DNA from: a virus
Length of the DNA stretch: 29,679 nt
Virus record (IMG/VR): IMGVR_UViG_3300032092_000171
Span: 1 to 29,679 of that record
Strand: one strand, 5' to 3'
Each line of letters starts with the position of its first letter. Position 1 is the stretch's first letter. Positions 5,999 to 11,421 of this stretch are shown here, piece after piece. A model generated the notes under the pieces. It worked only from the letters and a program-made list of their open reading frames with translations, was not told the DNA's origin and ran no database searches. The translations under genes and the position numbers were made by a program.

Positions 5999-6358
5999 AT
6001 GAAAAAACAAATTTATCAAGTTAAAGAATTTAGAACTGCGTTTGGTTTATCTAACAACGTTCATGACTGCGATAAGGAACTTCATCAAGCACTGGTTACT
6101 GAAGAGATAGAAGAAATGATCCAAGCCAACAATCACGTTGAAATAGCAGACGCGATTATAGACCAAATGTATTTACTCATTGGCTATGCTTGTAACCTTC
6201 AAATTGAGGACAAATTAGAGGCACTATTCGATGAAGTACACCGTTCTAATATGAGCAAACTTGATAAAGAAGGAAAGCCAATTTACCGTGCTGATGGCAA
6301 GGTTATGAAAAGTGAATTGTATTTTAAACCAAATTTAAAAAATATCTTAACTAAATAA
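5999..6358 (+). CDS. MazG-like nucleotide pyrophosphohydrolase
   Basis: A 119-residue all-alpha NTP pyrophosphohydrolase of the MazG/PRA-PH-like type. The metal-binding helices carry ExxE (E35-E39 cluster) and ExxD (E48, D51, with D55). The C-terminal HRSNMSKLDKEGKPIYRADGK segment (81-101) is the typical phage version. Such enzymes hydrolyse (d)NTPs or ppGpp-like nucleotides; in phages they are thought to clear modified nucleotides or dampen the host stringent response. It is first in the AT-rich cassette and is followed after 2 bp by the ParB-like gene. Confidence 0.82.
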   Translation: MKKQIYQVKEFRTAFGLSNNVHDCDKELHQALVTEEIEEMIQANNHVEIADAIIDQMYLLIGYACNLQIEDKLEALFDEVHRSNMSKLDKEGKPIYRADGKVMKSELYFKPNLKNILTK

Positions 6359-6360
6359 AT

Positions 6361-6891
6361 ATGCAAAAAATAGCTAAAATTGAATACGTTCCAATATGGA
6401 AAATAAAAAACAATCCGAATAACCCGCGTCTTGTTAAAGATGACAAGTTTAAAAAATTAGTTAAATCAATAAAAGATTTTCCTGATATGTTAGATAAAAG
6501 ACCTATTATTGTCAATCAAGATTTAATTGTTCTTGGTGGTAATATGAGATTAAAAGCTTGTAATGAGGCAGGATTAAAAGAAGTTCCTATTATTGTAACT
6601 GATTGGAATGAAGAACAACAAAAACAATTTATAATAAAAGACAATCTTGGATATGGTGAATGGGATTGGGATATGATTGCTAATGAATGGGATGTAGAAG
6701 AAATTACAGAATGGGGTTTAGATTTACCAGACTTTCAAAAAGAAGTAAAATTAGATGATGCCGATGATTTATCTTCAGAAATTAAATCTTTATATAGAAT
6801 AGAAATAATTTGTTCAGATGAAGAACATCAAGAAAACACTTATAATAAACTAATTGAACAAGGACACGAATGCCGACTTTTGACATTATAA
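6361..6891 (+). CDS. ParB/Srx-like nuclease-domain protein
   Basis: A 176-residue protein. The ParB N-terminal fold spans residues 6-95: VPIWKIKNNPNNPR, KFKKLVKSIKDF, then VLGGNMRLKA with the phosphate-binding GGNMR at 59-63. It is followed by the DNLGYGEWDWDMIANEWD helix (94-111) usual in phage members. There is no HTH DNA-binding domain, so it is not a partition ParB. Stand-alone members bind or hydrolyse nucleotides and often sit beside DNA-modifying genes. The C-terminal YRIEIICSDEEHQ segment (about 146-158) ends in CRLLTL. It overlaps the ABC/GNAT gene by 22 bp, which indicates coupled expression and a joint function. Confidence 0.85.
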   Translation: MQKIAKIEYVPIWKIKNNPNNPRLVKDDKFKKLVKSIKDFPDMLDKRPIIVNQDLIVLGGNMRLKACNEAGLKEVPIIVTDWNEEQQKQFIIKDNLGYGEWDWDMIANEWDVEEITEWGLDLPDFQKEVKLDDADDLSSEIKSLYRIEIICSDEEHQENTYNKLIEQGHECRLLTL

Positions 6892-7946
6892 AAGAAGTAA
6901 AGCCATCAAAAACATTTAGAGTGGCTTCAGTGATTGGTAAATTTGATTTACAATCGGAAAATGTAGTTGAACATTTCAAAGGTGATATTGATATACCAAA
7001 TGAATGGCAAATAGGTTTAATAGTAGGCAAAAGCGGAACTGGTAAAACTACAATAGCAAAACAATTATTTGAAGATGCTTATATAACAACTTATGATTAT
7101 TCAGCAGAAACTGTTTTGGATGATATGCCAAAAGAATGTAGTGTTGAACAAATTACTTCTGCTTTTAATTCAGTAGGGTTTTCAAGTCCACCCAGTTGGT
7201 TAAAACCATATTCAGTATTAAGTAATGGACAAAAAATGAGAGTTGATTTAGCTCGTGCTATTTTAGAAAAGAATGAATTGTTTGTATTTGATGAGTTTAC
7301 AAGTGTTGTAGATAGAAACGTGGCTCAAATAGGATCATTTGCAATGCAGAAAGCAATACGTAAAACTAAAAAGAAATTTATAGCGGTTACTTGCCATTTT
7401 GATGTTCAAGATTGGCTGCTACCCGATTGGGTATTTAATACAGACACGATGACCTTTCAAAGTTTTGAAGGGCAAAAAAAAAATAGACCAGAAATTAAAT
7501 TTGAAATATACCAAACAACAGATAAGTCAATTTGGAAAATGTTTGCTAAACACCATTATTTGAGTCATTCGCATAATAACGCAGCAAATGTTTTTATTGC
7601 AACTGTTAATGATGAAGTAGCAGGTTTTCTTAGTGTATTGCCTTTTCCTCATCCAATAGTTAAAAAAGTTAAAAGGGTTCATAGATTAGTTATTTTACCA
7701 GATTATCAAGGTGCAGGAATAGGAATTAAATTTTTAAATGAAATAGGATTAATATATAAAAAAGAAAAATTTAGGTATAGAATAACAACAAGTTCTCCAA
7801 GTTTAGTATATGCTTTAAAAAAATCAAATGAATGGGCTTGTATAGATTTTTCAAGAAAAAAACAAAGTAGATTAAATTTAATGAATACTAAAATAAGTTC
7901 TAATCATTCGGCTAATAGAATAACTGCCTCATTTGAAATGAGATAA
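6870..7946 (+). CDS. ABC-type ATPase fused to GNAT acyltransferase (Mom-like)
   Basis: A 358-residue two-domain protein. The ABC ATPase (about 35-200) has Walker A GKSGTGKTT (53-61), signature LSNGQ (117-121), Walker B LFVFDE (137-142) and H-loop H176. The GNAT domain (about 210-358) has KHHYLS (227-232) and the acyl-CoA loop region RLVILPDYQGAGIG (272-285). This architecture matches COG2401, ABC-type ATPase fused to a predicted acetyltransferase. The HHY motif recalls the catalytic His-Tyr of phage Mu Mom, a GNAT-fold enzyme that modifies adenine in DNA. I infer a DNA hypermodification or nucleic-acid acylation role together with the ParB-like protein. There are no membrane segments, so it is not a transporter. 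Very AT-rich (15 G/C in 7681-7740). Confidence 0.85.
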   Translation: MPTFDIIKEVKPSKTFRVASVIGKFDLQSENVVEHFKGDIDIPNEWQIGLIVGKSGTGKTTIAKQLFEDAYITTYDYSAETVLDDMPKECSVEQITSAFNSVGFSSPPSWLKPYSVLSNGQKMRVDLARAILEKNELFVFDEFTSVVDRNVAQIGSFAMQKAIRKTKKKFIAVTCHFDVQDWLLPDWVFNTDTMTFQSFEGQKKNRPEIKFEIYQTTDKSIWKMFAKHHYLSHSHNNAANVFIATVNDEVAGFLSVLPFPHPIVKKVKRVHRLVILPDYQGAGIGIKFLNEIGLIYKKEKFRYRITTSSPSLVYALKKSNEWACIDFSRKKQSRLNLMNTKISSNHSANRITASFEMR

Positions 7947-7964
7947 ACAGGTTAAAAACAGGTT

Positions 7965-8327
7965 ATGAGTAAATTTCCAAACGAAAAAACACAATTTAAA
8001 AAAGGTAAGTCGGGTAACCCAAAAGGGCGACCTAAAAAATATGTATCTTTGCTTAAAGAAGAAGGTTACAAATTATCAGAGGTTAATGATACTATTCAGG
8101 CAATGATGGCAATGAATATGGATGAACTTAAATTGGTTTGGGATAATCCAGATGCTACGGTATTGGAAAAAACTATTGCCAACGCAATGCGAAAAAGTAT
8201 TGAGAAAGGTTCGCTATATTCGATTGAAACTTTATTAAGCAGGGTTTACGGTAACCCGAAACAAATGACCGAATTAACAGGTAAAGACGGAGACCCAGTA
8301 CAAATTATTATATCTGATAAGTTATGA
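7965..8327 (+). CDS. Putative terminase small subunit (DUF5681-like)
   Basis: A 120-residue protein. The N-terminal FKKGKSGNPKGRPKK (11-25) is the basic DUF5681-type motif. It is followed by a possible HTH (KLSEVNDTIQAMMAM) and a helical region ending SRVYGNPKQMTELTGKDG (92-109). This layout is common in phage small terminases, which recognise packaging sites. It lies on the arm opposite the large terminase, far from it along the map, which is unusual. Its stop overlaps the next ATG (ATGA). Confidence 0.6.
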   Translation: MSKFPNEKTQFKKGKSGNPKGRPKKYVSLLKEEGYKLSEVNDTIQAMMAMNMDELKLVWDNPDATVLEKTIANAMRKSIEKGSLYSIETLLSRVYGNPKQMTELTGKDGDPVQIIISDKL

Positions 8328-8548: not shown

Positions 8549-8762
8549 GTTTGACTTGAATGATTCTATTGATATACAAGCCCACAAAAGGTTTATGTCG
8601 ATTGATTCGGTTTATTACGTGCTATGGCAGTTTACCGAAGAAATGCGAAGACAGGTAAAGTACAACACACAAAACTACAATGATGACCAATTAGAGGCAA
8701 TCGAGAAACTACGTGAGACATTTAATGAGTTACTAATAAATAACCAAATAACACTTGATTAA
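8532..8762 (+). CDS. Conserved phage protein of unknown function (76 aa)
   Basis: A 76-residue protein starting MKAVIEFDLND and continuing with a long helix (YVLWQFTEEMRRQVKY). This small family, with an N-terminal beta strand and a WxxxEEMRRxxKY helix, recurs in many phages, usually near packaging or early structural genes. Its function is unknown to me. From here GC returns to the higher level of the structural genes. Its stop overlaps the next ATG by one base (TAATG). Confidence 0.72.
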   Translation: MKAVIEFDLNDSIDIQAHKRFMSIDSVYYVLWQFTEEMRRQVKYNTQNYNDDQLEAIEKLRETFNELLINNQITLD

Positions 8763-8929
8763 TGGAAGAACAACGCGAACAACAAATGCACCATACTTAC
8801 CGCTTATGCGTAATGTTTGGTATGTGGCTACAACAACCTGCACAAAGAAAGAGGTTAGCCAAAGGATCAATGACTGACTTGTTTCAGGAATGGATTGAGT
8901 TAATTAGTAATCAGTTGGGAGATGAGTAA
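8762..8929 (+). CDS. Short hypothetical protein (55 aa)
   Basis: A 55-codon gene fitting exactly between its neighbours: one-base overlap (TAATG) with the previous stop and 8-bp overlap with the next gene. The product starts MEEQREQQMHHTY and forms a helical segment with FGMWLQQPAQRKRL and a LFQEWIELI helix. No family recognised. Without it 8763-8921 would be empty. Confidence 0.65.
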   Translation: MEEQREQQMHHTYRLCVMFGMWLQQPAQRKRLAKGSMTDLFQEWIELISNQLGDE

Positions 8930-9503
8930 AGTAAAACTTACCCTTGACTATTCGACCATTACGGTTAAGCAATACGTTGACTTCTTAACCAACGAAGGTA
9001 ATGAGATTGGTCAGGTGTCCGCTATTATGGGACAACCGAAGGACTACGTTAGGCAACTATCACCCGAAGATATAACGAAGGTGATTGATGCGTTCAAATC
9101 GGTTATTGAAAATCCTTTAGCAGCACACAAGCACAAATGGAATAAGTACGGTTTTGTTCCCGACATTAACAAGATTTCTTTTGGTGAATGGTTGGATTTA
9201 GAAAGCAATTGCAAGGACTTTCCAAAGAACCTTAATAAGATACTTGCTATTCTTTACCGACCTATTGAATCAGAGATTGGTTCAAAGTACAAAATAGAGC
9301 CATACAGCTCAGACCATTTAAACAATGCGAAGGTATTTGATGAGATGCCTTTAGCAATCGCAAACGGTGCGCTTGTTTTTTTTTCGAATATCGAAAACGA
9401 ATTGTTGAATCGTTCCCTCGAGTATTTAGATACAACGATGATAACGGAGATGGAGAAAGCGATTCAGATGATGAAGGAAGCGGTGGAGCAACCAACGACT
9501 TAA
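8922..9503 (+). CDS. Tail assembly chaperone-like protein, short form
   Basis: A 193-residue zero-frame product. The middle has KISFGEWLDLES (about 84-95) and a LAILYRPI segment (109-116), a pattern I associate with structural or assembly-chaperone proteins of Bacteroidetes phages. The C-terminal helix (ITEMEKAIQMMKEAVEQ) reads as a natural end. At codons 152-155 the T9 run allows a -1 shift that replaces the last 39 residues with a 92-residue alternative. The pair resembles the G/GT arrangement of siphophage tail chaperones. The tape measure is about 7.6 kb downstream rather than adjacent, so the functional name is tentative. Confidence 0.7.
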   Translation: MSKVKLTLDYSTITVKQYVDFLTNEGNEIGQVSAIMGQPKDYVRQLSPEDITKVIDAFKSVIENPLAAHKHKWNKYGFVPDINKISFGEWLDLESNCKDFPKNLNKILAILYRPIESEIGSKYKIEPYSSDHLNNAKVFDEMPLAIANGALVFFSNIENELLNRSLEYLDTTMITEMEKAIQMMKEAVEQPTT

Positions 9504-9661
9504 GCGAACGATACGGATGGTTTCACGTTATCGAAGAATTAGCAGACAGGGATGTCACTAAATTTGATACAATAACCGAAACTCAAGCCAGTACAATCTT
9601 CGCGCACCTATCGTATCGAATAGATTATTTTTCTTTTCAAAAACAACTCCTAAAAAAGTAA
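8922..9661 (+). CDS. Tail assembly chaperone-like protein, -1 frameshift long form (246 aa)
   Basis: Join of 8922-9383 with 9383-9661. After GTT TTT TTT the ribosome would slip back one base and read TTC GAA TAT. The -1 frame runs 92 codons to TAA at 9659-9661: a basic patch (EYRKRIVESFPRVFRY), an acidic Asp/Ser/Gly linker, then a globular segment (ERYGWFHVIEELADRD and IFAHLSYRIDYFSFQKQ). This frame has no ATG, GTG or TTG codon, so it can only be expressed by frameshifting. It fills the otherwise empty 9504-9661. Confidence 0.7.
9375..9386 (+). promoter_or_regulatory. Programmed -1 frameshift site (T9 run)
   Basis: Zero-frame codons are GTT TTT TTT TCG, with nine consecutive T at 9376-9384. 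Both P- and A-site tRNAs for TTT can re-pair after a one-base backward slip. The shift connects to a long open frame lacking any start codon. A homopolymer sequencing error is the alternative, but both downstream frames read as plausible protein. Confidence 0.7.
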
Positions 9662-9682
9662 CTATTTGCGTCTTTGATATAT

Positions 9683-10156
9683 ATGGCAACAGCATCTTCA
9701 CTCTATACCTATAACGTAGTCGTTAGCAAGTTTCAGCAATTCGCTGAACAACACGCGTTAATTAGAAGGTTCACACACGGACAAATCGCACAAGCGGACT
9801 TGGAGAAAGAGACCGAATATCCCTGGATGCACGTAACCCCAACAGGAATAAGTTTCGATAAAGGTCAACTTTCGTACACGTTTGATGTGTTCTTTGCTGA
9901 CCTTCCACGCGATAAAGACGAAAAGACCGAGTATCAAAAACAAGCGATAAGTGATTGTATCTTGTTAGCTTCCGACTTTGTTAATATGCTTGAGTTAGGT
10001 CACCTATTCGATGAATCGGTAGTATTGACTACACCAATAAGCGGAAGTCCTTTTGTTGAGGAGTTTAGCCACGTTTTAACGGGTGTTCAGTTATCCATTG
10101 AATTAGCGGTTGACTATTTGTGGGATGCGTGTGATATACCTTATATCGGCGACTAA
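9683..10156 (+). CDS. Tail completion/terminator-like protein
   Basis: A 157-residue protein. It starts with a helix (SSLYTYNVVVSKFQQFAEQHALI), then beta segments (WMHVTPTGISFDKGQLSYTFDVFFADLP). The region around 85-110 is helical (KQAISDCILLASDFVNMLEL) and is followed by a C-terminal beta sheet. This resembles tail terminator or completion proteins of siphophages, which cap the tail tube and join it to the head. ATG 9683 is preferred; a TTG at 9674 would add three residues. One-base overlap (TAATG) with the fibre gene. Confidence 0.55.
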   Translation: MATASSLYTYNVVVSKFQQFAEQHALIRRFTHGQIAQADLEKETEYPWMHVTPTGISFDKGQLSYTFDVFFADLPRDKDEKTEYQKQAISDCILLASDFVNMLELGHLFDESVVLTTPISGSPFVEEFSHVLTGVQLSIELAVDYLWDACDIPYIGD

Positions 10157-11421
10157 TGGCAAAGAAGGTACAATATACAACTAACCAACCAAGTGCCTCA
10201 ACTGATTACTTGGCAGCAGATAACACTTGGAAACCCTACTCGGGCGGTTCGGGTGGTGGTGGCATTCCTCACGGATCTACAAGCGGAACTGATACCTACA
10301 CCACAACCATAAGCGGAGTTACTTCATTAAGTGATGGAGATGCGTTCTTAATTCGTTTCGTTACTGGCAACACTACAGGTTGCACGTTAAACATCAATTC
10401 ACTTGGTGCAAAAACGTTATATCGTAATAACGATGGCGCGTTGATAGGTGGCGACATTGTAGATGGTGCTGAAATGTTGTGCGTTTATAACTCAACAACT
10501 GATGCATTCCAAGCCATAGGAACTGCGCCAAATACTTTGTTGTCATATGTAACAAATGCAGAAGCCACAACCATAACCAAAGGTCAAGCGGTTTACGCAT
10601 TCGGTGGTCAAGGAGACCGTCTTAAAGTTAAGTTGGCAAGTAATACAACAGATGCGACTTCAGCTCAAACAATAGGTGTTGTCTTATCAACTTCGATAGG
10701 TGCAAATCAAAAGGGTTTAATTATAATGCAAGGTCAAATTGATGGATTGAGTTTATTCCCTACTTCAACTTGGGCTGATGGAGATGCGGTGTACTTGGGT
10801 GCAACTGCAGGTTCATTCAGTAAAACCAAACCATTAGCACCAAATCACCTTGTTTATCTTGGCTTTGTTACAACCGCAAGTAATGGTAGTGCAGGTCGAA
10901 TGTATGTTAGGGTGCAGAATGGTTATGAGTTAAATGAGATTCACGATGTTTCATTATCTTCACCTACCAATGGTCAAGTATTGACTTATAACTCAACGAG
11001 TGATTTATGGGTTAATCAGTCGATTCCTGCTACAACTCAATTATGGAATTTTCAGTTAGCCAATACCATAGCCACATCAGCTACTACTTGGATAGGTGTT
11101 GGTGTTACAGGTGGAACAAACGAAAGCACAGCAACGGTTATAATGCCATTTGCCTGTACTTTGTCCGATATGTACACAATGCACTATAACACAACACAAC
11201 CCGCTACAGGTAGCCAAGTATTCACGGTTCGAAAGAATGGAGTTGATACGGCTTTAGCTATTACGATTTCAGCAGGTAGTGTACCAACTACAACACCATA
11301 TTCTAATACTGCTAACTCGGTAACATTTGCCGCAGGTGATAAGTTATCAATACGCAGGGTGAACAATGCTACTGCTACAGGTGGCGCAGTTAACGGTTTG
11401 TCTTTTAAACTAACCATATGA
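10156..11421 (+). CDS. Putative tail fibre / receptor-binding structural protein
   Basis: A 421-residue Ser/Thr/Gly-rich beta protein without hydrophobic core helices. After an N-terminal YTTNQPSASTDYLAADNTWKP segment comes a Gly-rich linker (30-36). Two beta domains follow, then DVSLSSPTNGQVLTYNSTSDLWVN (about 265-288), the short fibre module seen in many tail fibres. The last about 130 residues look like a jelly-roll head (LWNFQLANTIATSATTWIGVG through SFKLTI), likely the receptor-binding part. Low lysine and high Thr/Asn fit a secreted or virion-surface protein. Confidence 0.7.
   Translation: MAKKVQYTTNQPSASTDYLAADNTWKPYSGGSGGGGIPHGSTSGTDTYTTTISGVTSLSDGDAFLIRFVTGNTTGCTLNINSLGAKTLYRNNDGALIGGDIVDGAEMLCVYNSTTDAFQAIGTAPNTLLSYVTNAEATTITKGQAVYAFGGQGDRLKVKLASNTTDATSAQTIGVVLSTSIGANQKGLIIMQGQIDGLSLFPTSTWADGDAVYLGATAGSFSKTKPLAPNHLVYLGFVTTASNGSAGRMYVRVQNGYELNEIHDVSLSSPTNGQVLTYNSTSDLWVNQSIPATTQLWNFQLANTIATSATTWIGVGVTGGTNESTATVIMPFACTLSDMYTMHYNTTQPATGSQVFTVRKNGVDTALAITISAGSVPTTTPYSNTANSVTFAAGDKLSIRRVNNATATGGAVNGLSFKLTI

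Follow-up and report, generated by a model that had tools for sequence, protein, structure and literature searches.

A ParB/ABC-GNAT gene pair in an exchangeable phage slot that holds DNA-modifying enzymes in sister phages

A ParB-like gene and a gene for an ABC ATPase fused to a predicted GNAT acyltransferase domain form an inherited unit in a 29,679-base virus record (IMGVR_UViG_3300032092_000171, positions 1-29,679; hereafter the window). They lie in a slot that is isofunctional, holding DNA-modifying enzymes in sister phages. Because this slot is occupied in related phages by a DNA methyltransferase, Mom, TET/JBP with a glycosyltransferase, or ABC-GNAT, DNA modification is strongly supported as the role of the pair. 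The context thus favors the function first suggested for this pair, though not the suggested kinship with Mom beyond a shared His-Tyr. We consider it likely that the pair is a phage DNA-modification unit, in which ParB would recruit the enzyme and ATP would gate a putative acylation of a base amine in the phage DNA. The relevant features of the window are these:

5999-6358: MazG-like gene, a window open reading frame (ORF) upstream of parB
6361-6891, + strand: ParB-like ORF, 176 amino acids (Pfam PF02195, E 3.7e-9)
6361-6738, + strand: ParB_N (ParB/Srx-type) domain, the constant half of ParB (Pfam PF02195)
6778-6888, + strand: ParB C-terminal tail, about residues 140-176 (tail HMM, stand-alone ORFs, structural model)
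6870-6891, + strand: 22-bp overlap of parB and the ABC-GNAT gene, sequence ATGCCGACTTTTGACATTATAA
6870-7946, + strand: ABC-GNAT ORF, 358 amino acids (Pfam ABC_tran, 3e-10; Acetyltransf_7, 6e-7)
6870-7470, + strand: ABC ATPase domain (Pfam ABC_tran; invariance in 145 sequences)
7476-7943, + strand: predicted GNAT acyltransferase domain (Pfam, model, fold search, invariance)
6739-7997, + strand: exchangeable modification cassette, ParB tail plus ABC-GNAT (DNA alignment with sister contig L220)
7965-8327, + strand: DUF5681 gene, conserved right border of the slot (Pfam PF18932; anchor of the slot census)

The gene pair and its relatives

The second protein of the pair had been read as a complete ABC ATPase fused to a GNAT domain, and both Pfam and an alignment of 145 relatives agree. 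Walker A lies at residues ~53-60, the signature (LSxG) at 117-121, Walker B at D141-E142, and the H-loop at H176. These motifs and the GNAT CoA motif, Q280-G-x-G283, are invariant or nearly so across the 145 aligned relatives, with zero variation at G53, G56, G58, K59, S118, G120, D141, E142, and H176 of the ATPase and at W222, F225, H229, Y230, R272, and W322 of the GNAT domain. The active-site motifs of both domains are therefore intact in the window enzyme. The HHY motif pointed out in the GNAT part survives as H229-Y230, which is invariant, while its first residue varies among the relatives as H, F, or Y. A protein family whose function is not assigned in PHROG, phrog_11143, matches ABC-GNAT over approximately its full length (E 1.4e-101). 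Neither the matches listed for the unit nor the tally of adjacent bacterial genes includes a membrane domain or permease family. PADLOC recognized the ParB only as a component of a type II methyltransferase model and gave only weak generic ATPase matches to the ABC domain.

The 22-bp overlap reported for the two genes is seen in the sequence and probably reflects translational coupling. In a survey of its recurrence, the pair was found as a unit in every assessable IMG/VR relative: all 79 with room upstream have a ParB gene with an overlap of exactly 22 bp, which excludes chance as the source of the pairing. The overlap is 22, 19, or 4 bp in phages of Lactococcus, Streptococcus, Oenococcus, Pasteurella, Leptospira, Arthrobacter, and Gordonia; P335, MismyG, and many bacterial loci have the same 22 bp. 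Among the best 80 of 438 bacterial loci, most have ParB just upstream, often with the 22-bp overlap. The degree of fusion varies, from several Firmicutes phages in which ABC and GNAT are separate genes to two loci (L146 and L180) in which ParB, tail, ABC, and GNAT are fused as one frame. The pair is close to terminase genes in P335, MismyG, Pmp13, and LE3. In Streptococcus phage MismyG, an ASCH-domain gene (L082:5117-5485) adjoins the split ABC and GNAT genes, and ASCH also occurs beside two bacterial copies.

The DNA-modification reading of ABC-GNAT is a published prediction and is not new. As related in PMC7824862, Iyer et al. (2013) predicted an uncharacterized acyl modification of a DNA base as the activity of a GNAT linked to an ABC ATPase, and the window protein resembles that predicted ABC-ATPase/GNAT DNA-acylation system (PHROG 11143) in its two fused domains and in all motifs. 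The passage on ABC-GNAT in PMC7824862 makes no mention of ParB, a partner tail, a swap slot, or a formyltransferase. It names QAX98348.1 as the predicted GNAT/ABC-ATPase protein, given as from Tenacibaculum phage pT24, and the window protein matches QAX98348.1 with 34.5% identity over 88% (tblastn, E 3e-50). We found QAX98348.1 (L095:3851-5029) in the record of Aeromonas phage AsFcp_2, not in that of pT24; the two phages each encode a relative of the window protein.

Exchange of modules before DUF5681

To the right of the pair lies the DUF5681 gene, which served as the anchor of a slot census; the content before it was read in 80 viral-contig loci. In this census, which like the samples of relatives is a top-80 list ranked by similarity, partly redundant rather than random, with module labels assigned by homology, the slot held ParB fused to an N6/N4 DNA methyltransferase in 22 loci, ParB with Mom in 15 (plus 3 more with an incomplete Mom at the contig edge), combinations of TET/JBP and/or TET-associated glycosyltransferase (TAGT) in 9, ABC-GNAT in 1, and ParB with a lone glycosyltransferase in 1. 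Another 24 loci have a short ParB, together a single cluster at 80% identity, and the two of these that were examined have a methyltransferase and unknown genes upstream. The remainder were cut or unclassified.

The exchange can be followed at the DNA level. Sister contig L220 carries a ParB-methyltransferase in place of ABC-GNAT; its identity to the window is 93% over 6535-6738, disappears entirely over 6739-7997, and resumes to the right of the swap, at 91% over 7998-8325 and 88% over 8761-10950. By BLASTN, the shared block ends at 6722-6759 in L220 and in seven other contigs (L221, L222, L224, L226, L228, L229, and L234). The cassette at 6739-7997 is replaced in related phages by a methyltransferase, Mom, or TET/glycosyltransferase. 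Since the breakpoint lies inside parB, the last ~50 residues of ParB move with the module. The ParB_N segment to its left (6361-6738) has 73 to 93% DNA identity with phages carrying other modifiers, and ParB proteins that are ~90% identical serve different modules. The ParB tree requires at least 28 module changes, and its smallest strongly supported clade containing the window has one partner each of the ABC-GNAT, Mom, and methyltransferase kinds.

The base composition of the region is consistent with its description as an AT-rich block. The G/C counts first given for it are exact (15 in 7681-7740 and 28 in 9001-9060), and 5999-7946 has 29.8% GC versus 36.8% and 35.7% in the flanks. No other stretch of equal length in the window is as poor in GC as the swapped segment, 6739-7997 (1.26 kb). 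The idea that the block was acquired as a unit stands for the ParB tail plus ABC-GNAT (6739-7997) and fails for the MazG-like gene, which had been counted as a member. A MazG gene is upstream of none of 69 ABC-GNAT relatives, and L225 shares ABC-GNAT but not MazG, which together rule out MazG as part of the unit. From these comparisons, the MazG-like gene at 5999-6358 appears to be an independent insertion.

Mom and ABC-GNAT in Mu-like phages

A second, independent swap occurs in Porphyromonas phages. In phages whose tail proteins are 84% and 95% identical, the last genes, at one position, are either Mom, 33% identical to that of Mu, or ABC-GNAT with a formyltransferase. Mom is found in contigs L216 and L218 and ABC-GNAT in L217. 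In a set of Mu-like loci anchored on a Pseudomonas relative, Portal_Mu was found in 24 of 28 tested records, three of them the Porphyromonas contigs. The Mu transposase family DDE_2 proved too weak as a marker of Mu-like phages, and Portal_Mu served instead. In the Mu-like set, ABC-GNAT is often the final gene on the contig, where mom sits in Mu. Mu-like prophages of this kind usually have a DNA-modification function encoded by one of their final ORFs (PMC7761591), and an acetyltransferase has been described in a region where other variants of a phage hold DNA methyltransferases (PMC7468147).

A partner tail on ParB

The constant half of ParB has sequence relatives in the PDB among ParB/Noc/Spo0J chains (E 1e-14). 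The other end of the protein follows the enzyme. A tail profile (HMM) built from seven phage ParBs matches the partner ParBs of ABC-GNAT in 79/79, 70/70, 21/22, and 1/1 cases (171/172), and it matches none of 147 ParBs beside other modules. The last ~35 residues of ParB thus appear, by profile matching, to be a module-specific domain of ABC-GNAT, which is a new observation. In the Mu-like set, 69 of 82 loci have the tail as a free ORF of ~50 residues immediately ahead of ABC-GNAT, without ParB_N and mostly with a 4-bp overlap. No such ORF was found in 36 Mom loci of Mu-like phages or in 159 other control loci.

Tail residues E154 and Q157 are invariant. In the ParB model, a compact ParB_N is followed by a poorly ordered linker and then by a confident helix (154-166) between unpaired extended stretches. 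Because a weak linker followed by a confident helix is what would be expected of a docking element, the model suggests that the tail is a partner or docking element of ABC-GNAT. A 42-residue gene of Porphyromonas phage phage008a_KCOM2797 (L090:3867-3995), labeled "acr candidate," resembles the stand-alone ABC-GNAT partner domain, and the anti-CRISPR label is probably wrong.

The GNAT domain and Mom

The model of the GNAT domain shows a clean GNAT fold (pLDDT 87.3, pTM 0.81). Among the fold-search matches listed, the closest solved structures are generic and N-terminal acetyltransferases, e.g., RimI and Naa50, and the Mom structure 8bv8 is not among them. A GNAT profile had no match among the sequences of solved structures, PF25680 (Mom) is not among the 25 best Pfam matches of the window protein, and profile comparison of the GNAT domain with Mom is not significant (hhalign probability 1.4 to 13%). 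Neither pairwise BLASTP nor profile comparison, run in two rounds, gave significant support, and we rejected homology to Mom.

The domain shares some traits with Mom of phage Mu (PF25680). Both have the GNAT fold, and both have an invariant His-Tyr at the equivalent position (H48-Y49 in Mu) and an Arg later in the chain. They use the same genomic slot, and Mom, too, is often preceded by a ParB gene (77 of 79 Mom loci). HYS is invariant in 10 Mom proteins. The suggestion that HHY recalls Mom therefore keeps its His-Tyr, common to both, but not its wider sense, given the low hhalign probabilities and the generic GNATs as nearest folds. Mom also differs in having no ABC domain and in the canonical CoA motif, QGxG, which the window GNAT keeps. 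By these sequence tests, the window GNAT seems to stand outside the Mom family, yet it occupies Mom's genomic place. An outcome foreseen as adverse to DNA acylation, a GNAT domain aligning only with protein or small-molecule acetyltransferases, is roughly what the fold and sequence comparisons gave, and we count both the nearest folds and the nonsignificant similarity to Mom against DNA acylation. Among the Mom genes of L299-L378, ParB is directly upstream in 77 of 79, with a 22-bp overlap in 69; the sequence of this overlap is not the one seen in the ABC-GNAT pair.

Accessory genes

Where there is room after ABC-GNAT, a Formyl_trans_N gene follows it in 33 of 59 Mu-like-set loci, and one is also found in Gordonia phage BiggityBass. 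In four phages of different hosts, the formyltransferase is directly after ABC-GNAT (L092:5107-5724, L091:1823-2473, L090:5122-5595, and L100:3653-4186). Aspartate 1-decarboxylase (PanD) follows ABC-GNAT in Rhodococcus phage Jace (L089:5074-5499) and in 6 of 37 Jace-set loci; the relatives of Jace with the gene just after ABC-GNAT are L459, L472, L473, L474, L476, and L479. These neighbors hint at the chemistry of ABC-GNAT. Both are absent at the window pair, and Pfam and PHROG searches recognized no gene for a TET, a hydroxymethylase, or a 5hmU kinase beside it.

Proposed mechanism and alternatives

We infer a mechanism with DNA as the substrate, an acyl group as the addition, an exocyclic amine as its site, and roles for both the tail and ATP. 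ParB_N would serve as a general adaptor, delivering the enzyme to phage DNA, and the ParB tail, or the stand-alone tail peptide in Mu-like phages, would bind and position ABC-GNAT. ATP-driven closure of the ABC dimer could then grip the DNA and expose a base, and the GNAT domain, with H229-Y230 and R272 in its active site, would move an acyl group from acyl-CoA to the exocyclic amine. Because no base-activating enzyme (hydroxymethylase or 5hmU kinase) was found adjacent, the acyl group probably goes to N6 of A, N4 of C, or N2 of G. Modification would precede packaging and shield the phage DNA from restriction. In some subclades, the formyltransferase or aspartate decarboxylase may process the added group further or supply the donor. 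A broader generalization is possible, and we offer it tentatively: ParB_N would be a general phage adaptor into which recombination within parB plugs modifiers of unrelated chemistry, with ABC-GNAT needing its own ~35-residue partner, as ParB tail or free peptide, for a base acylation undescribed in any organism and finished by a formyltransferase in some phages.

The GNAT domain could instead acetylate a protein while the ABC domain senses DNA; the acceptor might be ParB itself, the RNA polymerase of the host, or a protein of packaging or of the capsid. This would fit the nearest solved folds of the GNAT domain, which are protein N-terminal and small-molecule acetyltransferases (RimI, Naa50), and there is precedent in that RNA polymerase is acetylated by phage GNATs, among them Rac of the phiKMV-like phages (PMC7824862). 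However, sister phages fill the slot with DNA-base modifiers of several chemistries beside the same ParB partner, and we regard protein acetylation as unlikely. The enzyme might also act late in a hypermodification pathway, acylating an amino group on a base already modified by other enzymes or by the host. Phages with acetylated hypermodified thymidines are known, and the formyltransferase and PanD neighbors of some subclades would suit such a step, but none of the TET, hydroxymethylase, or 5hmU kinase genes was recognized beside the window pair, and we regard this as quite improbable.

A toxin-antitoxin or superinfection-exclusion module, with the GNAT as a translation toxin and the ParB tail as its antitoxin, is very improbable. 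GNAT toxins that acetylate aminoacyl-tRNA are described in PMC9177977, and such modules typically have a small partner gene immediately upstream. Against this, the partner here is ParB_N plus the tail, or the tail alone, with no ribbon-helix-helix or other known antitoxin gene adjacent; the gene neighbors terminase genes or, in Mu-like phages, lies at the right end; and it is replaced by Mom or DNA methyltransferases.

A ParB-fed DNA-modification unit has parallels. ParB-fused phage DNA methyltransferases (phrog_498; N6_N4_Mtase, PF01555) occupy the same slot with a ParB_N up to ~90% identical, but the methyltransferase is fused in place of the tail and ABC-GNAT, and it transfers methyl from SAM rather than acyl from CoA. 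A ParB-superfamily protein is also beside a DNA-modifying enzyme in DpdB with TGT and DndB with Dnd (PMC12839542), and one adjoins TET/JBP in phage Tonitrus (PMC11955845). These systems differ in chemistry, and the passages describing them mention neither ABC-GNAT nor a tail domain.

The function of the ABC-GNAT family has been a prediction since 2013, and the slot swaps make it directly testable. Sister phages provide natural controls, i.e., near-identical genomes that differ in Mom, methyltransferase, or ABC-GNAT, and family members are found in cultured phages (P335, Oenococcus, Gordonia, Leptospira LE3/LE4, and Pseudoalteromonas SL25). If the proposed function is true, it would add a new DNA-acylation chemistry and show that phage DNA modification follows a general adaptor logic, and unknown genes in the DUF5681 slot would be flagged as further modifiers. 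Two proteins without a Pfam match (L261:2456-3217 and L261:3815-4555) lie beside a methyltransferase and a short ParB in that slot and are candidates for new DNA-modification enzymes. Elsewhere in the window, 1341-1964 on the - strand encodes a phage protein that carries the C-terminal DNA-binding domain of DnaA (PF08299, E 2.5e-17).
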